Below, piece by piece: positions 3,813 through 37,243 of a stretch of DNA of 40,288 nt. The stretch's first letter is position 1, and every line of letters starts with the position of its first letter. The stretch is taken from positions 1 through 40,288 of the IMG/VR virus record IMGVR_UViG_3300030333_006335, one strand, 5' to 3'. The stretch comes from a virus. Below the pieces are notes generated by a model, which saw only the letters and a program-made list of their open reading frames with translations, was not told the DNA's origin and ran no database searches. A program made the translations under genes and the position numbers.

Positions 3813-6800
3813 TTATTTCAATAATTCTATTATACTTTCTTTTGGTTTATCCATTAATTCTCCAAGAGTGAAGTTCTTTCCAGTCTCTGGATTAACTTTA
3901 TTTGTTACTAATGGGCCAAAATACTTTTTATATATATCTAAAGCTTTTTCTATTTTTTCAGCATGTAAAGACTTGTATTCTTCTGTGTTTAAATCTATTT
4001 TTCCTGCCTTATCTATTCTTGGTAGTTTTTTAAATTTTCTAGCATACTCTTCATCAAGTTTTCTTAAATAATAATTTTGCAACCTCATTGCTTTATCCAT
4101 GCCTTTTGGAATATCAATAGGTTTAATAGTAAACCCTGAAAACTTTGACCAATCTTGTACATCTGTTGTTTCAACTTGCATTGGGCCTTTATTTGTAAGC
4201 ATATTAGCAATAGCACCATGAGTGTTCATAATCCCCGGAACGGCTAAATTATAAACAAATTCAGCAAACGCAGCCGTTTTTTCTTTTACAGTAGAGTTTA
4301 CATTCCATAATTCAATAAGTCCACCATCCATAGTCGGAACTACTCCAGTAAACAACGCTGAGGAAATCATAGCTGTTGGCATAAGACCCATATTATTTCT
4401 TATCGCGGCAAAATCTCCACTATAAACATTATTAACAGTTTCATGCCAAAAAGACCAAGGAAGAGCATATTCTAAGTTAATAGCTTGTAATCTACCCTTT
4501 TTATCATATAAAGGTTTTCCAGAACCATCTAATCTTGGTATTATTAATAAAGAATTTGAATTTGCCATTTCATTGCCCATTGCAACTTTAAGCTTTCCAA
4601 ATTCTTCTTCAGTAAACTCACCATTATCTATATATCTTTTTGTTATTGCAGCAGTTAAAGCAAATGGTAGTATTAATGTTGTTGGCCTATGCCAAGCTGC
4701 CTCAGCTATTAATGGTAATACTTTTTGCTGGTATGTAATAAATGGAATACCGTACCAATTTTCCCTTAGAACTCTAGTCATTGGACTTACTAAAGAATAA
4801 TCCATTACCCACTTTTGAGCTTGCATAGATGCTTCTAAATCTGTCTTTCCTTGATTTTTAGAATGAAGATATTTTGTAAATTTATAAAACTCATCTATTT
4901 TTCCATATCCACCAGCTATTTTACTTCCAAAACTTTGTACAGCACCCCACCAGTCTCCAGTTTTTGCAAATTCTTTTTCCATTTCCTGAGTTCTTTTCAG
5001 TATTTCTTGAATTTCAGCCTCAGACCATGTTCCACTAAAAACCCCTGATTTCCCAGCAGATAACCAATCTCCGTCTTTTTTTGCCATTTTATAAGCAGCG
5101 CTAACCATAAATCTTGGAATATCGTGATATGCCATACCAGACATGCTCAACTGCCAAGGATTTGAAAATGTATTCCTTAAAATAGTAGGTGGATTAAATG
5201 CAACTTTACCTGTTTTCCAAAATGCAGTAACTCTTTTTTCTAAACTGTGTACTGACTCCTGATAGCTTCTATAATCAGATTTTTCTGTTAATTGAAACAT
5301 TGAAACAATATCGTCGTGAATAGATTTTCTAACATAAACGCCAGACAGTAATCCATATCCTTCGTGGACTGGTATTTGTTTAAAATCTTCTGGAGTCTTT
5401 CCAAGTAGAGATGATGATGTTTGTATTGCATTAGTTAATTCTTCTATATGCTTTCTTATATATGGCTCTTGTAATTCATCAGCATATTCAAGCATTTTTT
5501 TAGAAACTTCAAGTTCTCTAACAGCCTCACCTATTCCAAGCTTTTTCGTTTCTTTTGATCCCGGCGCCCTAGGAATTTCAACAATAGATGGTTGGTATGT
5601 AAAATTAGGATTTCCCAATATGCTAGCAAAGTAATCATATTTAGCGATGTCGCCAAGTTCTCTCATTAGGCCAACTTTAATGGGCAGTTCTGGAGTTATG
5701 ACTTCACCTAGTGTAGCTTTTGTTGCGGCGTCCAGTTCCTTTCTTTGCCAATGGTATGATAAATCCATTTTACTTCTACCGCCAATACTAGCACCTTTTT
5801 CAAGAACATATCTATAATATAGCCTTACTAGATATTCCCCCTTTAAACCATCATAGGCTTCTTGAGACATTAACCCCCTATCAACAAGGGCTTGGCCAGC
5901 ACCATCAAAGGCATCCCTAACTTCCTGAGTTAATTTTCTTAATTTAGTGTTTTTTATATTTTCTATAGGAATATCACCATGAAGAGCTTGCCAAGATTGT
6001 ACTCTTTCTAATTTTGTATACCCCTCAAATTGCTGGACTAAATCAGTAAGGCCATTGCTAATTAACCATCTTTGTCCTGCAAACTTATATCTTGCTTCTA
6101 AAAATTCATCTCGAATTTCTTTAGGCATGTCTCGCAAAGGATTAAAAAATTTATGAATCTCCTCGTAAACTCTTCTAAGTCCTAATTTAATAGTTTTTTG
6201 TGATGGTTCTTTATTTTTTAAAGCTTCATTTGCAATAATTAAAGTTTCTGGAGTTATATTTTTACCTGTCATTAACGAATGAAGAGCATCGACTTCATCT
6301 GCACTTAAAATTTGTCTTGCTTTTCTTTGAGAAGACCTTTGATAAAGCCAATCATAAACAAGTTCAACGCCCGGAAATAAAGAAACCTTAGCACTTCCCT
6401 CAGGGAGGGTGTATTTTTCTTCTAAGGCTTTTTTTAGTTCATTTGCTTTTCTTATATTGCTTTTTATAATTTGAGCATCAGTAGACTTTGGATCTTTAAC
6501 TAATTTTAATTGTGCTTGCCACTCTTTTATATTTTTTCCAATATTATTATATACTGTTTCTTCTCCTGCTGGCATAGGGTCTTTTACTGCTTTGCCCTTA
6601 TAATCAGCTCGCATAATAGCATCTATGAGGCGATCTCTTTGTTTAAAACCTTTTTTAATGCCAAGTTTTTTTGCTATTCTTCTTAACTCAGGCATTCCAA
6701 AGTTGCTTATTCTCATCTTACCTACGCTATCATAAGATATTTTTAGCCCGTCAATAACTATAGTTGTACCTGCTTTTTGTTTTGGGTTTTTCGGTTTTTT

Positions 6801-9800
6801 ATAAGAATCTACAAGCTTATCTACTAATTCCCCCCTAGATATTGCTTCACCGTTATAAATACCTCTTTCTTTTGCTAACTTTACAATTTGATCCCATCTA
6901 TATCTTTTTGTATTTGTTTTTATATCTTCTATTGTTTTATCAAATCTATATTTTGCTTCAGGCTCATTTACACCTTCTAAAGCTTTTTCTAAAACAGCTT
7001 TAGAATGCCTAGGGTCTCTTGCTCCCTTCCACTTGGTTTCAACCTTATCGCCTTTAGATTGAACGCTAATTCCTAACTTGTTTAAAGAAACGATTGCTCC
7101 CTTATTTTCACCCCTAAATAAATTATCTACTGCATTTGCAAAAATATTAACTCTAGATCTTTCTTCTCTTGTTTTTATTTGAGTTTTGCCGTCTACAACA
7201 GTATTTGATTTTAATTTTGTTGCTACTTCATTTATTTTATTTTTAGCAAGCTCATAATTACCGTCAGGTATCATAGATTTTAATATTTCATTTGCCTTAT
7301 TATAATCTTGTGCTATAAAAGCATTTTCTAAATCTTCTTCATTGTATTTTTTATTTTTATCTCTATTTTTTGCTTCTTTTTCTTTTTTATTAGCTTGTTC
7401 TATATTTGTTTCTGCTATTTTTTCACCAAGCTTTGCAATCTCCATATCGAGTTTATCAATTTCTTCTTGAAGTTTATCCCCTTCAGTTTTTTCTTCTGGC
7501 TTAACTTTTTTTCTTCTTTCTGAAGCAAATTCTTTAAAATCTTTACCTTTTTTAGATATGTTATCTCCAACAGGCTCAGTAATTGTTTCTCTAGTGCTTT
7601 CCTTAATTGATTCTAATTCGCTAAATACTTTATTAACCTCTTTAAAATCTTTTGGATTCATATTGTTAAGCTTTGACTCTAACTCTGCTAGTTCAGGTTT
7701 TTTAAACATTTCAACCTGACCCTCACCCTTAGCCATTTCTAAAATAATTTTTTCTTTTGAAGGATGACTTCTAACAGCTTTTAATGTTTCAAGAATCATA
7801 TTATTTACAGCATTTGGATTCGCTTTTGTAAATGAAGAAGGCAAAACAGAATTAAAATAATTTCTAAGCTTTTGAGTCCTCTCACCTAACCCTCCATGCA
7901 TTGCAGAATAACTAACTAACATTGCACCACTAGATAATTTTTGAGTATTATTTAAAGATTTTTGCCTAGCCTTTGTTTCGTCATCCCAGCTATCCCAATC
8001 TGGATGGTCTTCAATATCGGGAACCATAGCATATCCTAAAAATCCAAGGGCTGGATAACTAGAATATTTTGCAGCTTTTTCTAATCTAGTTAACTTACCA
8101 AGTTCTTTCATTGCTCCAACTGAGCTAAATAAAGTAGCATGCCAAGTAGACTCTTTAATAGCATGCAACCTGTCTTTAAAGTCGACTCCTATCATATTGG
8201 CATCTGCTTGAGCATGTAAATTAAATCCAATAATATTTGAAGCCCATCCAGTAGATACATTTGCTATTTTTGGGTTTTTAGACATAAATTTAAATACTGA
8301 ATCTAACATAGACATTTTTCTACCAGCGTCAATTACCAAACCAGTCGCAATAGCTCCACCTTTCATCATGTAATTAAAAGGTATTAGCATACCAAAAAAA
8401 CCACCTGCAACATCTGCAATCGTTTCAGAATGAGAAGTGGCTGGAAGTTGGGGCTGTACTCTTGTATAGCCCATTGTAGCTGCCTGATGAAAAGAATTAT
8501 ATCCTCTTGCAAAAAACCCGGCCCAACTTCCAACTTTGTTTGCTTCTTCAGTAGAAATAGGGTCAGTAAACCACTCAGGTACTTTTATGCCCATATTTTT
8601 AGCAAGTGATAAATCTCCAACAAAAGGACTTTCTAGCATTCTTTGTGCTAACAATTTTATATTTTCAGCATCAAGGCCACCAGCTACTTGAGAAATTGCT
8701 TGTAAATCATCATTGTTTCCAGATTCTAGCATTCCATAAATTTGTTTTTCAACTTCAACTAAAGCTTTATCCTTATGGAGAATTTGAGGATTTTTTACAG
8801 GAGGGAAAAAAGAAGCATAATAAGCATCGCTTGAACTAGTTTTAAACCTTTCAAACTCTTCGCTTAGTGCTTTTATTGCATCATCTGTTTTTAATTGAGT
8901 ATCAGTTTCTGCTATTTTTTCTTGAACCGGCTCTTCTTGAACTTCTATTGGATTTAACAATGGGTCTAGAGTTCTATCATCTCCAGTATATTCTCTATTT
9001 ACTTCTTGTCCATAAATATTGTCAAGAGTAGACAGAAGAGGTTTCATTGCCAAAGGTGCTTTTTCTAAGTGTTTTTCATAAAATCCTTTTGCAGTATCTG
9101 TATCTGCAAGTTCTGGATAATCTTTCATTAACTGATCAACAAACCTATGGCTTGCTACATGACCGGGATCATTTCCCCATCCCCAAAAATATCCATATTT
9201 TTTAGCAACCCCTCCTAAAATTTGATAAGGCTCAACACTTCTTTCTAAATCTTTACTAAAGCCTCTATCTGCTAATATCTTTTTACCGTCTATATAAATA
9301 TCATAATCTCCACCTGCTCCAAAATTATGAAGGCTCAAGGGAGTCCAAGACGCTCCTTGATTTAGGTATTCTTGTTGTGTTTCTACAGACCTAATCCCAG
9401 AATCTCTTAACACAACCCTTACATCATTTGTTTTATAATATTTTTTTAAATTTTCAGCAGTTTGAGAAGCAATAGTATTTAAATTGCTTTCAAATTGTTT
9501 TTGGTCAAACTGTTTAGGGACTGAACTTGTTACGTTTGCAATAGTCTCTTCTATAGATTCAGGATTTTGAAGAGCAGTATTTAAAATAGCATCTGCATTA
9601 TCAGTGGGTATTTGAGAAGAAGCTTGTTCTAAAGGAGCTTGTTCTGGAACTATTTGCTCTGGGACGACTAATTCTTGAGACTCTTCTTCAATAATTTGAC
9701 CATCATCAGAAACTTGAGATGCTAAATTAAAAATATTATTAGGCTCAGGACTTAATGTTTCAACATCTTCATCTTCTGCAACCAACTGACCGGGTTGCAT

Positions 9801-9878
9801 ATTATCATATTCTGTAGATAGATTTAAAAGCCAACCAGAATCACTTTGCTCATTCTGACTATTTTGTTTATCGGGCAT
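3813..9878 (-). CDS. Giant polyvalent virion protein with M15-type peptidase and LPD38-like domain, 2021 aa
   Basis: This is the largest gene here. Residues about 130-270 match a VanY/M15 D-Ala-D-Ala carboxypeptidase: SLHNFGAGGD supplies H184 and D191, and DPGH supplies D237 and H240, the expected zinc and catalytic positions. An acidic Glu/Gln-rich tail precedes it. A charged coiled coil is predicted at about 790-850. Two SAP/HeH-like helical repeats follow at about 993-1033 and 1053-1090. Around 1655-1760 the pattern DEFYKFTKYL...WVMDYS...GIPFITY fits large polyvalent protein-associated domain 38 (LPD38), a family found in giant phage proteins. Hydrophobic patches occur near 480-510 and 1720-1740. 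Such proteins are typically packaged and ejected with DNA; the peptidase would open peptidoglycan at entry. The ATG overlaps the upstream stop. Domain calls rest on recognised motifs; ejection is inferred. Confidence 0.88.
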   Translation of the reverse strand: MPDKQNSQNEQSDSGWLLNLSTEYDNMQPGQLVAEDEDVETLSPEPNNIFNLASQVSDDGQIIEEESQELVVPEQIVPEQAPLEQASSQIPTDNADAILNTALQNPESIEETIANVTSSVPKQFDQKQFESNLNTIASQTAENLKKYYKTNDVRVVLRDSGIRSVETQQEYLNQGASWTPLSLHNFGAGGDYDIYIDGKKILADRGFSKDLERSVEPYQILGGVAKKYGYFWGWGNDPGHVASHRFVDQLMKDYPELADTDTAKGFYEKHLEKAPLAMKPLLSTLDNIYGQEVNREYTGDDRTLDPLLNPIEVQEEPVQEKIAETDTQLKTDDAIKALSEEFERFKTSSSDAYYASFFPPVKNPQILHKDKALVEVEKQIYGMLESGNNDDLQAISQVAGGLDAENIKLLAQRMLESPFVGDLSLAKNMGIKVPEWFTDPISTEEANKVGSWAGFFARGYNSFHQAATMGYTRVQPQLPATSHSETIADVAGGFFGMLIPFNYMMKGGAIATGLVIDAGRKMSMLDSVFKFMSKNPKIANVSTGWASNIIGFNLHAQADANMIGVDFKDRLHAIKESTWHATLFSSVGAMKELGKLTRLEKAAKYSSYPALGFLGYAMVPDIEDHPDWDSWDDETKARQKSLNNTQKLSSGAMLVSYSAMHGGLGERTQKLRNYFNSVLPSSFTKANPNAVNNMILETLKAVRSHPSKEKIILEMAKGEGQVEMFKKPELAELESKLNNMNPKDFKEVNKVFSELESIKESTRETITEPVGDNISKKGKDFKEFASERRKKVKPEEKTEGDKLQEEIDKLDMEIAKLGEKIAETNIEQANKKEKEAKNRDKNKKYNEEDLENAFIAQDYNKANEILKSMIPDGNYELAKNKINEVATKLKSNTVVDGKTQIKTREERSRVNIFANAVDNLFRGENKGAIVSLNKLGISVQSKGDKVETKWKGARDPRHSKAVLEKALEGVNEPEAKYRFDKTIEDIKTNTKRYRWDQIVKLAKERGIYNGEAISRGELVDKLVDSYKKPKNPKQKAGTTIVIDGLKISYDSVGKMRISNFGMPELRRIAKKLGIKKGFKQRDRLIDAIMRADYKGKAVKDPMPAGEETVYNNIGKNIKEWQAQLKLVKDPKSTDAQIIKSNIRKANELKKALEEKYTLPEGSAKVSLFPGVELVYDWLYQRSSQRKARQILSADEVDALHSLMTGKNITPETLIIANEALKNKEPSQKTIKLGLRRVYEEIHKFFNPLRDMPKEIRDEFLEARYKFAGQRWLISNGLTDLVQQFEGYTKLERVQSWQALHGDIPIENIKNTKLRKLTQEVRDAFDGAGQALVDRGLMSQEAYDGLKGEYLVRLYYRYVLEKGASIGGRSKMDLSYHWQRKELDAATKATLGEVITPELPIKVGLMRELGDIAKYDYFASILGNPNFTYQPSIVEIPRAPGSKETKKLGIGEAVRELEVSKKMLEYADELQEPYIRKHIEELTNAIQTSSSLLGKTPEDFKQIPVHEGYGLLSGVYVRKSIHDDIVSMFQLTEKSDYRSYQESVHSLEKRVTAFWKTGKVAFNPPTILRNTFSNPWQLSMSGMAYHDIPRFMVSAAYKMAKKDGDWLSAGKSGVFSGTWSEAEIQEILKRTQEMEKEFAKTGDWWGAVQSFGSKIAGGYGKIDEFYKFTKYLHSKNQGKTDLEASMQAQKWVMDYSLVSPMTRVLRENWYGIPFITYQQKVLPLIAEAAWHRPTTLILPFALTAAITKRYIDNGEFTEEEFGKLKVAMGNEMANSNSLLIIPRLDGSGKPLYDKKGRLQAINLEYALPWSFWHETVNNVYSGDFAAIRNNMGLMPTAMISSALFTGVVPTMDGGLIELWNVNSTVKEKTAAFAEFVYNLAVPGIMNTHGAIANMLTNKGPMQVETTDVQDWSKFSGFTIKPIDIPKGMDKAMRLQNYYLRKLDEEYARKFKKLPRIDKAGKIDLNTEEYKSLHAEKIEKALDIYKKYFGPLVTNKVNPETGKNFTLGELMDKPKESIIELLK

Positions 9879-29028: not shown

Positions 29029-29118
29029 ACTAGTTAACTAGATACTAGTTTAAACTAGTAAATAGTTATATCTATTAATAGTTAAATATAGTATATAGTT
29101 ATAACTAGATACTAGTTT
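29029..29118. promoter_or_regulatory. Operator-like palindrome cluster
   Basis: CTAG-based dyads crowd the intergenic region between divergent operons. CTAGTTAACTAG (29030-29041) and ACTAGTTTAAACTAGT (29044-29059) are perfect palindromes. A 17-bp direct repeat TAACTAGATACTAGTTT occurs at 29035-29051 and 29102-29118; its core AACTAG-ATA-CTAGTT is itself an inverted repeat. Such paired dyads with 67-bp spacing suit a dimeric regulator and looping. No matching -35/-10 pair could be fixed with confidence, and no gene here is obviously the binder. Confidence 0.55.
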
Positions 29119-29133
29119 TATTTAACTATATTT

Positions 29134-29151
29134 ATATCTATATCTATATCT
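29134..29151. repeat. Three ATATCT tandem repeats in AT-rich block
   Basis: Three exact 6-bp units follow each other inside a nearly GC-free stretch (about 29060-29160) directly beside the 11-bp repeat array. An easily melted block adjoining iterons is the usual make-up of an iteron-type origin, but strand opening here is inference. Confidence 0.5.
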
Positions 29152-29160
29152 TCTATATGC

Positions 29161-29215
29161 ATAGCCTAGCTATAGCAAAGCCATAGCTAAGTTATAGCTT
29201 GGCCATAGCTAAGCC
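29161..29215. repeat. Array A: five in-phase 11-bp repeats
   Basis: Five consecutive 11-bp units start at 29161, 29172, 29183, 29194 and 29205, each beginning ATAGC. They read ATAGCCTAGCT, ATAGCAAAGCC, ATAGCTAAGTT, ATAGCTTGGCC and ATAGCTAAGCC. The period is about one helical turn, so bound proteins would sit on one face. A related array lies at 29921-29986 and a related motif inside the initiator gene near 38420. This suggests iterons of an origin or a phased operator. Confidence 0.7.
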
Positions 29216-29216
29216 A

Positions 29217-29559
29217 TAATATATATGAGGTAGTAAAAAATGGTCGCAAAAATGGATGGATCGCACCTTACATGAGAGTGACCCCCCTTCGAACGCGTTT
29301 CGCGTCCGAGAAAACCGTTGAGTACGCGTTTCGCGTGTATGCCTATGCATGAGCAGGCGTGGATGCATGCCTGCATGGAGCCGACGGTGCTAGCAGTTTG
29401 GCTCAACCCCCATTACCGACGACAATGAGCATTTGGTGCTAGGTCAGCCTAATATATCATCGCTAAGTTTGGCCATCACCGACGAGGAGAGCGGTGCTTA
29501 ACCGAGAGGCTAAGGCTTCTCACACAAATCTCGCTTTAGCGAGAAGAAAGGAACAAATC
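29217..29559 (+). other. Structured non-coding leader upstream of the early operon
   Basis: There is no credible gene in these 340 bases, and GC content jumps compared with the block before it. Hairpins visible by eye are ACGCG-TTT-CGCGT twice (29293-29305 and 29324-29336), GCAGGC/GCCTGC (29353-29374), GAGCC/GGCTC (29378-29404), CACCG/CGGTG (29477-29496) and TCTCGC-TTTA-GCGAGA (29529-29544). The last ends beside the ribosome site of the first early gene. The stretch could be a long regulatory 5' leader, a small RNA or part of the origin. The early promoter should lie in or before it but could not be identified. Confidence 0.5.
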
Positions 29560-29808
29560 ATGTTCACAAACGATGTCTTAGAAACACCCTATATCGACGA
29601 GATAGAAACAGAAGCCGTAGATCAGGAATTGCAAACCGTTATTGCCGACGACAATAACAGCGCCGTAGCAATGGAGGTAGCATTGACTGACATAGAACGC
29701 GTAGAGACTGAGGAAGCTTGGCTCAACGCGAAGGACGGTAACCTTGCCCTATGCGAAGAAGACGGCATGAGTTGGGACTCTGAAACAGACGCCTTTCACC
29801 GTCAGTAA
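29560..29808 (+). CDS. Very acidic early protein, 82 aa
   Basis: First gene of the rightward operon. The start is set at 29560 because AAAGGAAC lies 7-8 nt upstream; an in-frame ATG at 29494 has no ribosome site and would run through the leader hairpin. The protein has 23 Asp/Glu against only three Lys/Arg, a net charge near -20, with three Trp/Tyr and no membrane segment. No family is recognised. Small, strongly acidic, first-expressed phage proteins can be DNA mimics (T7 Ocr is the best known case), so an anti-restriction or other DNA-mimic role is possible but unproven. Confidence 0.7.
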   Translation: MFTNDVLETPYIDEIETEAVDQELQTVIADDNNSAVAMEVALTDIERVETEEAWLNAKDGNLALCEEDGMSWDSETDAFHRQ

Positions 29809-29816
29809 AGGCTCAA

Positions 29817-29853
29817 AGTAGCCGATGGAATACACAAGTAACCGTCGGCTACT
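29817..29853 (+). other. 12-bp intercistronic hairpin
   Basis: AGTAGCCGATGG (29817-29828) pairs with CCGTCGGCTACT (29842-29853) with one G-U pair; the loop is 13 nt. It starts 8 nt after the stop of the acidic gene and ends 2 nt before the tRNA-like element. No T-run follows. It may protect or define the 3' end of the first early transcript, or mark a processing site. Confidence 0.5.
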
Positions 29854-29855
29854 AC

Positions 29856-29917
29856 TCCCTAGGCTTGGTGCTACTACGTCGTCGATGTAGTAAGCAGTTC
29901 GACTCTGCTCTAGGGGG
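29856..29917 (+). ncRNA. tRNA-like element lacking a D-stem, 62 nt
   Basis: TCCCTAG (29856-29862) pairs with CTAGGGG (29910-29916) as a 7-bp acceptor stem with one T-G pair; G29917 would be the discriminator. Directly before the 3' strand lies a textbook T-arm: AGCAG, loop TTCGACT, CTGCT (29893-29909), with the G53-C61 closing pair and T54, T55, C56, A58 equivalents. A hairpin TACTAC/GTAGTA (29872-29892) sits where the anticodon arm belongs. Its 7-nt loop TCGTCGA lacks U33. Only nine bases (GCTTGGTGC) stand where the D-arm should be, although they keep a GG. No CCA is encoded. It is not a normal tRNA; it could be a tRNA mimic, a degenerate tRNA or a processing signal. Confidence 0.45.
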
Positions 29918-29920
29918 ACT

Positions 29921-29986
29921 ATGGCTAGGCTATACCGTCGGGATAGCTAAGCCATAGCTAGGCTATAGCGAGGCTATAGCTAGGCT
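29921..29986. repeat. Array B: six in-phase 11-bp repeats
   Basis: Units start at 29921, 29932, 29943, 29954, 29965 and 29976. Five read ATGGCTAGGCT, ATAGCTAAGCC, ATAGCTAGGCT, ATAGCGAGGCT and ATAGCTAGGCT; the second unit (ATACCGTCGGG) is degenerate but in register. One unit is identical to the last unit of array A. The array ends 34 nt before the ATG of the 119-aa gene, so protein binding here could also control that gene. Confidence 0.7.
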
Positions 29987-30020
29987 ATCGAAACAATACC
30001 GACGAGATTGGAAAAATAGA

Positions 30021-31792: not shown

Positions 31793-31920
31793 TGAGGGTA
31801 TTTAATAAGATAATGGATTTTATAGAATACTACGCGATCCAAAAGAACGACGAGTTTTTATTACTTGTAGTAGCATGGATGGCATTGGGACTAGTAGTTA
31901 AATTAATTATTAGCATATGA
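31792..31920 (+). CDS. Small membrane protein, 42 aa
   Basis: ATG 31792 overlaps the previous stop; TGA is at 31918-31920. The sequence starts MRVFNKIMDFIEYYAIQKND and continues with the hydrophobic stretch FLLLVVAWMALGLVVKLII, one predicted membrane helix. The ribosome site GGAGGAAA lies within the upstream gene's last codons. The stop lies in a large intercistronic hairpin. A holin-like role is possible for any small phage membrane protein, but only one helix and an early location make it doubtful. Confidence 0.6.
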   Translation: MRVFNKIMDFIEYYAIQKNDEFLLLVVAWMALGLVVKLIISI

Positions 31921-31948
31921 AATGCAAATGAATATGCTAATAATTAAT
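31902..31948 (+). other. 17-bp intercistronic hairpin with GAA...TGA loop
   Basis: ATTAATTATTAGCATAT pairs perfectly with ATATGCTAATAATTAAT; the 13-nt loop is GAAATGCAAATGA. The stem includes the end of the membrane-protein gene and the TGA stop runs into the loop. No T-tract follows. It belongs with the hairpins at 34699 and 35438, which have unrelated stems but the same loop ends. Confidence 0.7.
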
Positions 31949-32013
31949 AATAAACAACAAACGGCAAACCGAACAATCGGCAAGCCACAACAACAAACAG
32001 GAGGAACTTGTTT

Positions 32014-33273
32014 ATGAATTGGAACAGAAGTGAACTGTGGGAAATGGCCACAAAAGAACTGAGAAACCATTGTCGGAGACAATGTAAAGCAGTTGGAATT
32101 GGGAGAACTTGGGTCAATACTGCCTCTAAAGCCGTCAAGGTAGAGTTTTTATTGATGGATGAGCAGGCGCAGAGAGAGTTTGATGGTTTTACCATCCCGG
32201 AGAGAGAAGATGATAACCGAGAGGAATCAAAAGTAAAAATGACCTTTAAACCTCAGAAAAGTAGTGGTGAAGACGGCCTAACCGACATGCTAGCTACTTT
32301 AGTGTCGGATAGAATCGGCGGTAATGTTGAGGGGATTATAAAGGACTCTGTAAGGGAAGTCAAAGCTAGCATGCTAGAACAGTTTAACGACGAAACGGCA
32401 AAAACAAAGCAATATGTCGACGGTGCTATTGCTACCCTCAGAAAACCGGTTCAAGTTCACATAGATGGTGTACCGGCTACCACAATCGAGGATATGACCC
32501 ACGAGGCATTTCCGGAAGTTTTAGAGTGCTTAAAACATTTCGGAAGAGTATGGCTTTGTGGCCCTTCGGGAACCGGTAAGTCGTTCATCTTAGAACAATG
32601 TGCTAAAGCTCTCGGTTATAGCAAAGAACGAGGCAATTATGAGTATGTTAAGGGCGGAGCAGGCGTGACAGAGTCACATTTGACAGGGAGAATGACATTT
32701 GACGGCGAATTTATAGATGGGGCGGTATCTAGAGCATTCAGGAATGGTAATTTCCTATGCTTAGACGAATTTGACGGCTTCGATGCAAACTGTGGTCTAG
32801 TGTTTAATAGTGTGTTTGATAACCAAGGCATTTTAGCAACACCAAATGACAGAGAGCATCCGATAGTGCTAAAGAGTGACGGTTTTATGGTGGGTGTAGC
32901 ATCAAATACTTGGGGTGATGGACAAGATTTTAACTATGTAGGTAGGGGTCAATTAGACTTGGCGACTCTAGACCGCCTAAACCTACAGAAGTTCGAAATC
33001 GACTATGACAAGAACATAGAGAGAGCCTTAGCCGGGGACTACATAGACATGGCGAACATGTTATGGGATTTGCGGAGTAGGACGTTCTCCAATAGTGTTA
33101 GCAGAGTAATTAGCACAAGGCTTTTTATCGACGGTCAAAAATGGCGCAAACTGAAGAAGAGCAATGCTGATATACTTGATAAGATTACTGTGAATTGGAC
33201 TAAGGAAGAGCGTAGTAAGGTTAACGTCAAGGAACTTAAAAGTATGCATAGGTCAACAGGAAGGAGTATATAA
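32014..33273 (+). CDS. MoxR/CobS-like AAA+ ATPase, 419 aa
   Basis: A single AAA+ module. Walker A is GPSGTGKS (residues 183-190) and Walker B is LCLDEFD (248-254). A sensor-1-like asparagine lies in GVASNTWG and a probable arginine finger in RGQLDLATLDR. The architecture fits the MoxR/CobS (AAA_5) group, which remodel partner proteins together with VWA-domain proteins. The first 60 residues are helical and basic (ATKELRNHCRRQCKAVGIG), and a helical linker follows at 95-145. ATG 32014 is chosen because AGGAGG lies 9-10 nt upstream; a TTG two codons earlier is too close. Its stop overlaps the partner gene's start. No cobalamin genes are present, so cobalt insertion is unlikely. Confidence 0.88.
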   Translation: MNWNRSELWEMATKELRNHCRRQCKAVGIGRTWVNTASKAVKVEFLLMDEQAQREFDGFTIPEREDDNREESKVKMTFKPQKSSGEDGLTDMLATLVSDRIGGNVEGIIKDSVREVKASMLEQFNDETAKTKQYVDGAIATLRKPVQVHIDGVPATTIEDMTHEAFPEVLECLKHFGRVWLCGPSGTGKSFILEQCAKALGYSKERGNYEYVKGGAGVTESHLTGRMTFDGEFIDGAVSRAFRNGNFLCLDEFDGFDANCGLVFNSVFDNQGILATPNDREHPIVLKSDGFMVGVASNTWGDGQDFNYVGRGQLDLATLDRLNLQKFEIDYDKNIERALAGDYIDMANMLWDLRSRTFSNSVSRVISTRLFIDGQKWRKLKKSNADILDKITVNWTKEERSKVNVKELKSMHRSTGRSI

Positions 33274-34172
33274 TGGTCGACTATAAAAACATAGTTAAAC
33301 CTAAAATCATTACTGACGAAAATGGCTCAAATAGCCATGCGGTGGTACACTTTACAGATATGAGGGAGGTGCTAGAATGTATTGAAGACGGAGATTACCA
33401 TAACGACGACAATGGTGAACCCGGGTCTGACCGGTATGAATTTACCTATGGTAAAACCATTGTTGGCCGGGATGTGCTAAATAAACATCTTCGTATGGGA
33501 AAGACCGCTGATAAGTTCATCAAACAGTACCATAAGCAGAGGGCTATGCTAGAACGTAAAGCCGGAATAAAACAGTTTTTGGGACGCGGATTATCCTGTA
33601 AGCGAAGAAGAGTATACTGTGATAGTGGCGACGACTTAAGTATGTCGAGATTAATGGGTGGTAGTGACAATTATTGGTCTACGACGGTAAGGGAGTCTCA
33701 GCGTGCTAATATCCGAATAGGTATGAACATGGCTATATCATGGCAACATAAAGAAGACGACTTTATTAGGCTTGGTGCTAGTTTGGCGGTAATATCGGAT
33801 ATATTAACAAAGTTGGGGTATGCGGTAGAAGTGATATGCTACAATTTTGTAAGATATAGCGGAAAGCATGATTGGAGATATTTCGGAATGTCGATACCGA
33901 TAAAGATGCCTAATGAACCACTAGACATACATAGGCTATTAACAGGTGGAATACAGGGATTATTCAGAGATAAATGTTTCGGACTTATGAAAAAAGCTTG
34001 GAAATTTGGCTATGGACTTGGCCAACAAACAAAAACGACGGAATTGTATAAAAAAGAACTTCAATTAATTCATGTGGTCGAACAAGATATGTGTAACACA
34101 GATGAACAAGCGGTTGACGGCCTAAGTGAAATGATGCAGAAGTTATCAGATAAGCCGGTATGGATGAAGTAG
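33273..34172 (+). CDS. Putative degenerate VWA-like partner of the AAA+ ATPase, 299 aa
   Basis: Start overlaps the ATPase stop (TATAATGG) with AAGGAGTA upstream, so the two proteins are made together. The first 100 residues are acidic then basic. From about residue 135, the order IRIGMNMAIS, RLGASLAVISDILTKLGY and AVEVICYNFVRYS follows the beta-helix-beta order of a VWA domain. However, no DxSxS metal site is seen at the first strand, so the metal-ion-dependent adhesion site is missing or altered. CobT and other MoxR partners carry VWA domains, which makes the pairing sensible. The VWA call is by pattern only; the protein could equally be a new family. Confidence 0.65.
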   Translation: MVDYKNIVKPKIITDENGSNSHAVVHFTDMREVLECIEDGDYHNDDNGEPGSDRYEFTYGKTIVGRDVLNKHLRMGKTADKFIKQYHKQRAMLERKAGIKQFLGRGLSCKRRRVYCDSGDDLSMSRLMGGSDNYWSTTVRESQRANIRIGMNMAISWQHKEDDFIRLGASLAVISDILTKLGYAVEVICYNFVRYSGKHDWRYFGMSIPIKMPNEPLDIHRLLTGGIQGLFRDKCFGLMKKAWKFGYGLGQQTKTTELYKKELQLIHVVEQDMCNTDEQAVDGLSEMMQKLSDKPVWMK

Positions 34173-34180
34173 CACCATGC

Positions 34181-34223
34181 TTATATTTATATCTAGGATC
34201 TATAGATCCTATTATAAATATAA
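34181..34223 (+). other. Long bulged hairpin after the VWA-like gene
   Basis: TTATATTTATA (34181-34191) pairs with TATAAATATAA (34213-34223), and inside it TAGGATC pairs with GATCCTA around a TATA loop; a 2:1 bulge separates the helices. The hairpin is bracketed by near-repeats AGCACCATGC and AGCACCAGATGC. No T-run follows. It occupies most of the 98-bp gap before the next gene. Confidence 0.6.
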
Positions 34224-34270
34224 AATTATAAATAATAGCACCAGATGCTAAAACCAGAAAAGGAGTTAAA

Positions 34271-34699
34271 GTGAAAAGAAAACACAAAAGAATAGAAATG
34301 ATATATCCCCCGGAATATTATCTAAAAAGAATGAGTTCAGAAAAAGAAATGCCCGAGTCGGTAGAATTTAACGATGATGGACTTAGGTGTATAATCATAC
34401 CGGATGATAGGCAGTCGCTCATGGCCATGATTACAATAGGCATATATTGGCAGTTTGAAAGATGGTTCCATAAGCACGCTGACGGCGGAGATTCTATTAT
34501 TGTAGGTAAGAGTAAGGATTGGAACACAAAACGCCGTAAAGGGGCATTATACGCCTTTGCATGCTCAATGAAAGATGGGGATGCAGGCATAGTTATGCAT
34601 AAGTTTCCAAATTTCTTTAAAAATAAAGATAAAATAGCGGAAATGATTAGTGTAATGGCATCAACAATTAACGGCCAAGTAGTAGAGGAGGAGGAATAA
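34271..34699 (+). CDS. Hypothetical early protein, 142 aa (GTG start)
   Basis: The start is GTG 34271, with AAGGAG 7-8 nt upstream. The N-terminus is basic (MKRKHKRIEMIYPPEYYLKR). A central segment (IIPDDRQSLMAMITIGIYWQFERWFH) is hydrophobic but with charged ends, suggesting a buried helix rather than a membrane span. The C-terminus is acidic (VVEEEE). No family is recognised. Confidence 0.65.
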   Translation: MKRKHKRIEMIYPPEYYLKRMSSEKEMPESVEFNDDGLRCIIIPDDRQSLMAMITIGIYWQFERWFHKHADGGDSIIVGKSKDWNTKRRKGALYAFACSMKDGDAGIVMHKFPNFFKNKDKIAEMISVMASTINGQVVEEEE

Positions 34700-34744
34700 T
34701 TATTTATTATTGTATGAATATATATGAATACAATAATAAATAAT
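34699..34744 (+). other. 17-bp intercistronic hairpin with GAA...TGA loop
   Basis: ATTATTTATTATTGTAT pairs perfectly with ATACAATAATAAATAAT; the 12-nt loop is GAATATATATGA. It begins on the last base of the preceding stop codon and ends 9 nt before the chosen start of the next gene. No U-tract typical of a terminator follows. Confidence 0.72.
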
Positions 34745-34753
34745 AAAAGAAAT

Positions 34754-35092
34754 ATGGATGAAAAATTAAAATACAGATATGACGTAGCAATGGAGTTCCT
34801 TTTTGAGGAGATACAAAATAATTATGATAAATGGTGTGAACATTGTGGACACAAGAGTAAGGCACTTGATTTAAAAATCAAACCGGGTCGAAAGTTTGAT
34901 AGAATCATGGATGGTTCCTCCGCTTGGGGGTTCGTCGCTAAGGTAGAGGGTGAGCATAAAGGCTTGCCTTATAAGGTAGGTGATGTATTTAAGCCTGCTA
35001 CTTGGCGACAACCTGCCAAGCATGTCCGGGGGAATATATTTAACTATGAAAAAAATTGGTTCCGTTGGACAGGGCCACATTACTTAAAATAA
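34754..35092 (+). CDS. Hypothetical early protein with CxxC, 112 aa
   Basis: ATG 34754 is preferred. An in-frame ATG at 34724 lies inside the hairpin and would add MNTIINNKRN, and neither has a clear ribosome site. The sequence has a helical start (YDVAMEFLFEEIQNNYDKW), a WCEHCGHKSK pair of cysteines that could be half of a zinc site, and a basic beta-rich C-terminus (VGDVFKPATWRQPAKHVRG). No family is recognised. Confidence 0.65.
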   Translation: MDEKLKYRYDVAMEFLFEEIQNNYDKWCEHCGHKSKALDLKIKPGRKFDRIMDGSSAWGFVAKVEGEHKGLPYKVGDVFKPATWRQPAKHVRGNIFNYEKNWFRWTGPHYLK

Positions 35093-35111
35093 TAAGGAGG
35101 GAATTAGCATA

Positions 35112-35441
35112 ATGAGAACAGAGAGAGAAATAAGAGAAGTTCTTGCCGTTGAAAAAGATACTTGGGCTGACGGCGACCAAACCGACATGGTTATTAAGGG
35201 TTGGATTGAGGCACTTGAGTATGTGCTAGGTGGAAATGATTTAGTCGAACTGATAGATAATCTTGAAAAATCTATTAGTGAAAACAGTCTTGATGTGTGG
35301 ATGCATGATTTAAGTGATACAGTAAACGCTAGTTTTTTTGACCTCACAAAATATAGACGGGAAGATGGCTTAGTTTTTGAATATGACGGTTTTAGAAAAG
35401 AGTTTAATAGTTTGAAAAAAGCAATAAAGGGAGAATATTAA
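35112..35441 (+). CDS. Hypothetical early protein, 109 aa
   Basis: ATG 35112 follows AAGGAGGGAATTAGCATA. The protein is acidic and mostly helical. An N-terminal ERTEREIREVLAVEK-like helix precedes MVIKGWIEALEYVLGG, which resembles the helix-turn of small phage proteins with a GWIEALEWVL pattern. No catalytic motif. Its stop lies at the base of another GAA...TGA-loop hairpin. Confidence 0.68.
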   Translation: MRTEREIREVLAVEKDTWADGDQTDMVIKGWIEALEYVLGGNDLVELIDNLEKSISENSLDVWMHDLSDTVNASFFDLTKYRREDGLVFEYDGFRKEFNSLKKAIKGEY

Positions 35442-35481
35442 TATTTATTACTTGAAACATAGTGAAAGTAATAAATATTAA
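35438..35481 (+). other. 16-bp intercistronic hairpin with GAA...TGA loop
   Basis: TTAATATTTATTACTT pairs perfectly with AAGTAATAAATATTAA; the 12-nt loop is GAAACATAGTGA. It overlaps the TAA stop (35439-35441) of the 109-aa gene and ends 12 nt before the next AGGAGG ribosome site. No terminator T-run. Confidence 0.72.
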
Positions 35482-35501: not shown

Positions 35502-36005
35502 ATGAGCAAAAAAACAAGAAAAGCCTTGGGTGGTCGAACTTGGGGTGAACAACTTGAGCATGTTAAAAAGGTCATGTCTAAAATCGAGGACGAAGATCTA
35601 TATGATATTATTGAGTGGGTAGCATTGAATTTTATAAATGGTGTGGATGATGCGGTTAGATATTCCCAAGACGGTAAGGGAAACTCGGTTGATTCTTGGG
35701 ATAAGGAACAGAAATTAAATCTGCTATCAAGAATTTGGTGTGTTAATGATAAAGCAATTCAGCCGTTACTTAAGGGCAGAAGTGCTATCTTTAACCTAGG
35801 TACAGATGCAATAGCAAAAAATTGGGACATAATTGAAGAGGGGGAGTGCTTGGAATTTGAAAATATTAAATATCCCGACGGCAAAACAGGGATAGGTGTT
35901 AAAAAAGGCATTGGCATAACACAGGGCGAACTCGACGGCTTAACAGATGTGGAGCAAGAAATTATTAAAAACCTAGCACTAAACAATCAGTCAGGGGAGG
36001 CATAG
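35502..36005 (+). CDS. Hypothetical early protein, 167 aa
   Basis: Strong AGGAGG ribosome site 10-11 nt upstream of ATG 35502. The N-terminal 100 residues are helical (EQLEHVKKVMSKIEDEDLYD, NLLSRIWCVNDKAIQPLLK). The C-terminal part contains a small beta unit (FENIKYPDGKTGIGVKKGIG) and an acidic helix. No family is recognised. Three nucleotides separate its stop from the zinc-finger gene. Confidence 0.68.
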   Translation: MSKKTRKALGGRTWGEQLEHVKKVMSKIEDEDLYDIIEWVALNFINGVDDAVRYSQDGKGNSVDSWDKEQKLNLLSRIWCVNDKAIQPLLKGRSAIFNLGTDAIAKNWDIIEEGECLEFENIKYPDGKTGIGVKKGIGITQGELDGLTDVEQEIIKNLALNNQSGEA

Positions 36006-36733: not shown

Positions 36734-37012
36734 ATGCCAACATACACAGAAACACCAAAAGCAAAACCCGAAACCGGAAAATACCATGATATATCTATTA
36801 GTGACAAATCACTAATTAGGGTCAGTAAGGATACGGTAAATGAAAAAACATTTGGCCAAATAAGAATTTGGACAAAGATAGGCGATGGCGATAGTGCTAA
36901 GTGGATACCTACGAAAAAGGGAGTAGCATTTGGATTAGATAAGTTAGAGGATATTATCCGCGCTTTGAGCATGGTTAGCATCGAGGGTGATGCTAAGGAG
37001 TTTGCCTCATAA
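36734..37012 (+). CDS. PC4-like ssDNA-binding protein, 92 aa
   Basis: The pattern IRVSKDTVNEKTFGQIRIW then WIPTKKGVAFGLDKLEDII matches the transcriptional coactivator p15/PC4 family. Members dimerise to bind single-stranded DNA through a curved beta-sheet; the KKGV turn and following helix are characteristic. Residues about 20-85 form the domain, and the N-terminus is a Pro/Lys/Thr tail. An AAGGAG ribosome site lies 8-9 nt upstream, and the start codon sits at the edge of the palindrome GCATATATATGC. This is the last gene before the terminator. Likely roles are replication, recombination or late transcription switching. Confidence 0.8.
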   Translation: MPTYTETPKAKPETGKYHDISISDKSLIRVSKDTVNEKTFGQIRIWTKIGDGDSAKWIPTKKGVAFGLDKLEDIIRALSMVSIEGDAKEFAS

Positions 37013-37243
37013 CACACCCCTCAATGGATAGTGGGTATGCTATCGTGCTAAGTGAATGGTATTTAAGTCCTTAAATATCTGCCCACAACCGCAAACAACA
37101 CTAATGCTCGAAAGGGGGCGCAAATCAGCGCCCCCTTTTTTTGTTCACAAGAAAGAAAACAAACCAACGCGCTCATCTACAAGGAGGAGGAGAGAGATAA
37201 GCGTATGTAAAATAACACACATATAAAGTATTAATCAAATTAT
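37013..37243. other. Convergent intergenic region
   Basis: No gene is supported between the converging early and replication modules. It holds TATTTAAG/CTTAAATA (near 37068-37085), the intrinsic terminator at 37114-37142, and an AAGGAGGAGGAGAGAGA purine run (37180-37198) without a frame after it. Confidence 0.5.
37114..37142 (+). terminator. Intrinsic terminator of the early operon
   Basis: GGGGGCGC (37114-37121), loop AAATCA, GCGCCCCC (37128-37135), then seven T. It closes the rightward operon 102 nt after the PC4-like stop. On the minus strand only three T follow, so termination of the converging transcripts would be weaker. Confidence 0.92.

Follow-up and report, generated by a model that had tools for sequence, protein, structure and literature searches.

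What are the long, perfect hairpins that stand between the early genes of an uncultured tailed phage, and is it as RNA or as DNA that they are kept? The question arises in IMG/VR virus record IMGVR_UViG_3300030333_006335, which is 45,994 bases long; the stretch analysed here (the window) is its first 40,288 bases. An original prediction had placed three such hairpins in the window, and their coordinates and sizes turn out to be exact. One more is found in the same record beyond the window:

31902 to 31948, plus strand: hairpin 1, stem of 17 bp, loop of 13 nt, GAAATGCAAATGA
34699 to 34744, plus strand: hairpin 2, stem of 17 bp, loop of 12 nt, GAATATATATGA
35438 to 35481, plus strand: hairpin 3, stem of 16 bp, loop of 12 nt, GAAACATAGTGA
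41891 to 41936 of the record, outside the window, minus strand: fourth hairpin, ATTAAATATTATTCCTTTTATTTTAATGAAAGGAATAATATTTAAT, preceding a leftward gene in the leftward gene cluster

All three hairpins of the window are perfect, and their loops start with GAA and end with TGA, as had been described. The stop codons noted on or beside them lie on or within the 5' arm or, in hairpin 1, at the stem-loop junction, where TGA is the stop of the upstream open reading frame (ORF) of 46 codons; the AAA ATPase gene follows. The first base of hairpin 2 is the final base of the TAA of a 142-codon ORF, and the following ATG is at 34754. Hairpin 3 overlaps the TAA of a 109-codon ORF and is followed by an ATG at 35502, with AGGAGG. 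Hairpins with a stem of at least 12 bp and a loop of 9-16 nt are observed three times, against 0.0 in dinucleotide-preserving shuffles, both for the early region and for the whole window. The excess over shuffled sequence, named in the original prediction as a check, is thus present.

We next consider the family in relatives. Two single-protein scans for relatives gave no matches, and scans with the terminase and with aligned sequences of the ATPase that follows hairpin 1 then succeeded, giving 80 and 36 viral loci, respectively, with some contigs common to both. The relatives are metagenomic contigs throughout, partly redundant, and from the sample numbers one may guess that the phage group is marine. 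A covariance model built on 21 hairpins, with a short calibration that makes its E-values rough, finds the element in 39 of 52 IMG/VR records (16/29 and 23/23); some of the unmatched records are partial contigs or belong to more distant relatives. In total there are 171 instances and 66 distinct sequences, some instances being counted twice via overlapping loci. The hairpin at 29817-29853, earlier listed as related, does not belong here: it has 12 bp with one mismatch, is GC-rich, lacks the family loop and is not matched by the covariance model.

The family also emerges when the motif is ignored. Every perfect hairpin with a stem of at least 14 bp and a loop of 9-16 nt was collected from 657 kb of early-region loci; on one of the strands the loop ends in TGA in 81 of the 85 distinct hairpins, and of the remaining four, three are copies with the loop end TGAT. 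Other long perfect hairpins of such geometry are therefore practically absent from the early regions. Outside the group, a scan of IMG/VR with a 20-base pattern of the tip matches only members of this phage group, and no Rfam covariance model matches at its gathering score (one chance-level match lies nearby). Among phage isolates there are only distant ATPase matches, at ~31% identity or less, and a search of GTDB genomes for the host, by homology to the ATPase, finds no relative.

The stems had been described as unrelated in sequence, which does not hold. They share an A/T-rich pattern, and 7-8 bp below the tip they have a TA step (UA in the RNA) that is invariant in an alignment of 59 distinct rows and present in 64-65 of the 66 distinct sequences otherwise. 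Further, the type of stem depends on the gene site: TAGC in front of the ATPase, TTACTT or TTGTTT in front of the gene of a 150-residue protein (cluster 3), and TTAGTTCT or similar in front of the leftward gene.

In the 59-row alignment 95.8% of the stem cells form standard pairs, compared with 66% when partners are shuffled and 29-58% in slid registers, and two-sided changes are seen in 294 cells against 105 after shuffling. Because this alignment is itself fitted to the structure, we used the hairpin site upstream of the ATPase as an anchored test and mapped it on the ATPase protein tree. There, several stem pairs switch on both sides, repeatedly on the tree, among A-U, U-A, G-C and C-G. Such two-sided switches are found between close relatives (CTAGCATT/AATGCTAG and CTAGCTTT/AAAGCTAG; CATAA/TTATG and CATAG/CTATG), and the sole unpaired state seen is T.T, in three rows. 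Homologous stems thus keep their pairing, and the scan of related phages that had been proposed gives both the element and its covariation. Overall, 1048 of the 1065 stem cells are Watson-Crick pairs, three are G.U and 14 are other mismatches; all three wobbles are G.U on the sense strand, and A.C does not occur.

According to the predicted folds the loop is structured, with tandem G.A pairs, a covarying C-G/U-A pair and a tetraloop. RNA folding places on the stem a purine interior loop of 2x2 or 3x3 (GA/GA, GAA/GAA), followed by two pairs and, as a rule, a tetraloop, most commonly UUUA, GUAA or GUUA. In the folds each element consists of a 15-17 bp helix, 2-3 purine-purine positions (G.A/A.G) and a 2-bp mini-helix, that is ~20-22 stacked layers or two helical turns. 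Hairpin 1 can be folded in this way, with G.A/A.G followed by A-U, U-A and a GCAA tetraloop at the end. The suggestion that the GA...GA loop ends stack as tandem sheared G-A pairs fits the predicted 2x2 and 3x3 interior loops. Sequence and folds permit such pairs beside the helix, a feature of kink-turns and k-loops, while the 3-nt bulge of a full kink-turn is absent.

No other pair of loop positions has as much mutual information as 22 and 27: among the 66 distinct loops they are C-G in 33, U-A in 11 and U.G in 11. A divergent copy before the ATPase in loci L131 and L024, with the loop GAAGGAACTGA, would have G-C at this pair. All 66 distinct loops have UGA at the 3' end. The base that faces the invariant U28 is A in 44/66 and G in 7/66, which is the pattern of pairing on the sense strand. 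Of 53 distinct tips, 50 are more stable when folded as the sense strand, with a mean difference of -2.2 kcal/mol; since the tips are related to one another, the p-value serves as an indication only.

The placement of the element refers to the following genes and to the end of the early block:

32014 to 33273, plus strand: CobS-like AAA+ ATPase (AAA_5, phrog_249), with an upstream hairpin in nearly every relative that has a readable site
33273 to 34172, plus strand: DUF7192 protein; its start overlaps the ATPase stop, with no hairpin between the two
35502 to 36005, plus strand: uncharacterised protein encoded after hairpin 3; gene order puts it in the cluster 3 place of the relatives
36734 to 37012: protein with a PC4-like (single-stranded DNA binding) domain, just below the Pfam cut-off; in relatives it is conserved beside the 150-residue gene
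37110 to 37139, plus strand: GC-rich intrinsic terminator with a T-tract, closing the rightward early gene block

In general the element sits between a stop codon, commonly inside the 5' arm or at its first bases, and the next gene, whose ribosome-binding site or ATG lies 1-65 nt beyond the stem in nearly all cases. In the rightward as in the leftward cluster its orientation is sense relative to the neighbouring gene families; a rough check by reading-frame length agrees with sense orientation downstream in 58 of 66 sequences, and the eight exceptions are small differences with overlapping frames. All-frame stop codons in the 5' arm, also considered, occur in 0 of 66. The hairpins stand at the edges of gene blocks whose genes are otherwise closely coupled, and two genes, those of the CobS-like AAA ATPase and of the 150-residue protein, are almost always preceded by a hairpin although the upstream gene changes. 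The ATPase and DUF7192 genes (32014-34172) are a conserved coupled pair in these phages. In many relatives a second, small hairpin (GCCGAAATCGGC or GGCAAATTTGCC) is seen between the large hairpin and the ATPase ribosome-binding site, for example just upstream of 7001 in locus L131 and upstream of 1501 in locus L178.

Since the orientation is sense-only in both clusters, the G.U wobbles are sense-only and the sense tips are more stable, the results speak for hairpins under selection for their RNA shape. Selection at the RNA level, one of two possibilities raised by the original prediction, is well supported by the covariation, the covarying loop pair and the sense-strand stability.

The other possibility, a mobile cassette, is supported in part. 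In the relative G011 two 47-bp copies are identical, including a T.T mismatch, and stand before different genes with unrelated flanks. Copies within a genome are 87-100% identical across the hairpin with flanks that are near random, and accessory genes are bracketed by additional copies. However, the main copies are at fixed gene sites and are inherited. The copy at the ATPase site is inherited vertically down to ~35% protein identity: in distant relatives (terminase ~67%, ATPase ~35% identical) the same site has a 22-position stem with one mismatch and the loops GAAAACAAAGTTGAA and GAAAACGAAGTGAA, indicating that the site is old. In L132 the ATPase-site hairpin is retained with a different loop.

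How, then, would the RNA act? The reading that we prefer, at about even confidence, is that the hairpins are intercistronic elements that punctuate the early polycistronic message and set the processing and/or the stability of its segments. The hairpin in the transcript would be read by a host double-strand-specific nuclease of the ribonuclease III (RNase III) type, or would shield the ends that another cut produces. The early message would thereby be split into segments with protected ends, so that blocks such as the ATPase/DUF7192 pair could be expressed independently, and new copies would arise by copying of the ~47-bp unit during gain or reshuffling of accessory genes. Sense-only intercistronic hairpins of about two turns that bound coupled blocks would be expected of signals for processing or end protection, as known for RNase III in T7, T3 and lambda (PMC5371410). 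The reader would be RNase III or an RNA-binding protein.

Several observations weigh against intercistronic processing. G.U is very rare in the stems (3/1065 cells), fewer than expected for a helix kept as RNA alone. Bacterial RNase III needs no conserved loop, so the conservation of the loop points to a more specific reader than plain RNase III. A phage-encoded RNase III was looked for and its gene is found in 0 of the 10 phages searched; the enzyme would therefore be that of the host.

A more specific form of the idea, which we consider possible but somewhat doubtful, is a dedicated phage RNA signal. The copyable hairpin, with its tip (tandem G.A, UGA, tetraloop) and UA step, would be read by one specific protein or nuclease, would serve as repeated punctuation of early genes and would spread with each gained module.

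The rival that survives best is a binding site for an RNA-binding protein, encoded by the phage or its host, that is specific for both sequence and shape. Such a protein would recognise the G.A motif, the UGA and the UA step in the stem, and would control how the downstream gene is translated or its message decays. Because the conserved tip and the UA step suggest a reader more specific than plain RNase III, we keep this binding site as a strong rival, while regarding it as rather unlikely. The invariant UGA and the near-invariant UA step at a set distance from the tip favour such a site, the hairpin stays with the downstream gene while the upstream gene varies, and the loops are alike within a genome. 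However, there is no candidate protein: the 150-residue product has no recognisable family, and its AlphaFold model (pLDDT 82) has a best PDB match with an E-value of 0.37, so no fold can be assigned and it was rejected as the RNA-binding protein. Further, the ribosome-binding site lies outside the hairpin, which makes simple sequestration unlikely.

The near absence of G.U from the stems would also fit a role as DNA, with a palindromic operator or promoter in front of every gene block, like those suggested for the ESAS elements of cluster K mycobacteriophages or for the promoter stem-loop cassettes (PeSLs) of T4-type phages. So would the location before gene blocks, the size of 46-47 bp with 17 bp arms, close to ESAS, and the TTGA- and AATAAT-like words in some elements. 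This appears improbable, as the arms change together, site by site, at the ATPase position, stem wobble is seen on the sense strand only, and loop pairing favours that strand. The best sigma-70 score is 8.14 against 8.11 in shuffled sequence, and the -10-like word (AATAAT) is at a varying distance from the loop; a sigma-70 promoter inside the hairpin, the only promoter type tested, was therefore rejected. A single-subunit phage RNA polymerase, of the kind that uses N4- or T7-type hairpin promoters, was sought with PF00940, which matches in 0 of 10 records, a search in which the positive control likewise matched nowhere.

We consider it hardly probable that the hairpin is chiefly a mobile or recombination-promoting unit, spread by copying and permitting accessory-gene exchange with no role as RNA. 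The identical pair in G011, the other within-genome pairs (87-98% identical, with near-random flanks) and the accessory genes between copies agree with such a unit, but vertical inheritance at the ATPase site does not, and mobility alone leaves the strict sense orientation and the structured loop unexplained.

Intrinsic terminators or attenuators can practically be dismissed in spite of the long stable stems after stop codons, since the stems are A/T-rich rather than GC-rich and lack a U-tract (the longest T run is 0-3 within 10 nt from the last stem base, in line with the reported lack of a T-tract), and the real terminator of this phage, at 37110-37139, looks different and stands at the end of the block that contains the hairpins.

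Some further features of the window deserve mention. Between early genes, 29855-29917 is strongly folding and resembles a degenerate tRNA, with a 7-8 bp acceptor-like stem (CTCCCTAG/CTAGGGGG) and a T-arm-like AGCAG-TTCGACT-CTGCT; the region 29805-29925 folds with a z of -5.2. ARAGORN and Rfam make no call on it, and the blastn output shown contains no relative. Repeats based on CTATAGCTAGGCTATAGC at 29162-29217 and 29919-29992 flank the divergent region, also in many relatives, and may mark an origin or a regulatory region. A/T-rich palindromic repeats that overlap one another (AACTAGATACTAGTT, ATATAGTTATA) lie at 29036-29150, between the leftward and rightward gene blocks. A further protein was noted:

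3813 to 9878, minus strand: virion-type protein of 2021 residues, whose N-terminal stretch matches the endolysin family phrog_465

Few phages are known to have repeated, covarying RNA elements at the borders of gene modules. With this family, an uncultured phage group seen in many metagenomes has a signal that is defined and open to test, and the covariance model lets the element be sought elsewhere. There may be a link here between punctuation of the RNA and the exchange of gene modules.

How does the element compare with known systems? The original prediction had drawn a parallel with the PeSLs, which PMC4503421 describes as cassettes of an early promoter and a terminator (Arbiol 2010, Comeau 2014). 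It stands as an analogy: going by that description, both are stem-loop cassettes that recur at the borders of early accessory genes and are linked with gene shuffling. However, neither a promoter at a fixed position (sigma-70-type tested) nor a terminator U-tract (T runs 0-3) is found here. ESAS elements are ~46-47 bp long with 17-bp inverted repeats, occur in several copies before non-structural genes and are tied to particular gene families (PMC3203893, PMC11373665); the spacer is 12-14 nt in Adephagia and 4-13 bp in PMC3203893. As in ESAS, 17-bp inverted repeats ~12-14 nt apart stand directly upstream of gene starts. ESAS repeats are imperfect, their authors conclude that the departures do not support RNA pairing, and putative SigA-like promoters lie inside them (PMC3203893, PMC11373665), whereas departures in the present element are compensated, and it shows no promoter. 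The SAS motif GGGATAGGAGCCC, the partner of ESAS, is absent from the 70 nt downstream of 58 elements. As these defining features of ESAS and PeSLs fail, the element is filed under neither. The haloarchaeal virus HGTV-1 also has a repeated inverted-repeat motif before many ORFs (PMC3950731), but it is an archaeal virus and its motif includes a TATA-box-like region. The hairpin family is previously undescribed.

The RNase III sites of T7 and T3 are coding-strand hairpins that separate early genes within a polycistronic message. The element resembles them in being an intercistronic sense-strand RNA helix of about two turns between early genes. RNase III processes the messages of lambda, T7 and T3 and leaves stabilising hairpins (PMC5371410), while cleavage here is only putative. 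Unlike the T7 and T3 sites, the hairpins form a uniform family with near-perfect A/T-rich stems and a conserved tip of G.A pairs, UGA and a tetraloop, and they occur as paralogous copies at several borders, with one stem type per gene site.

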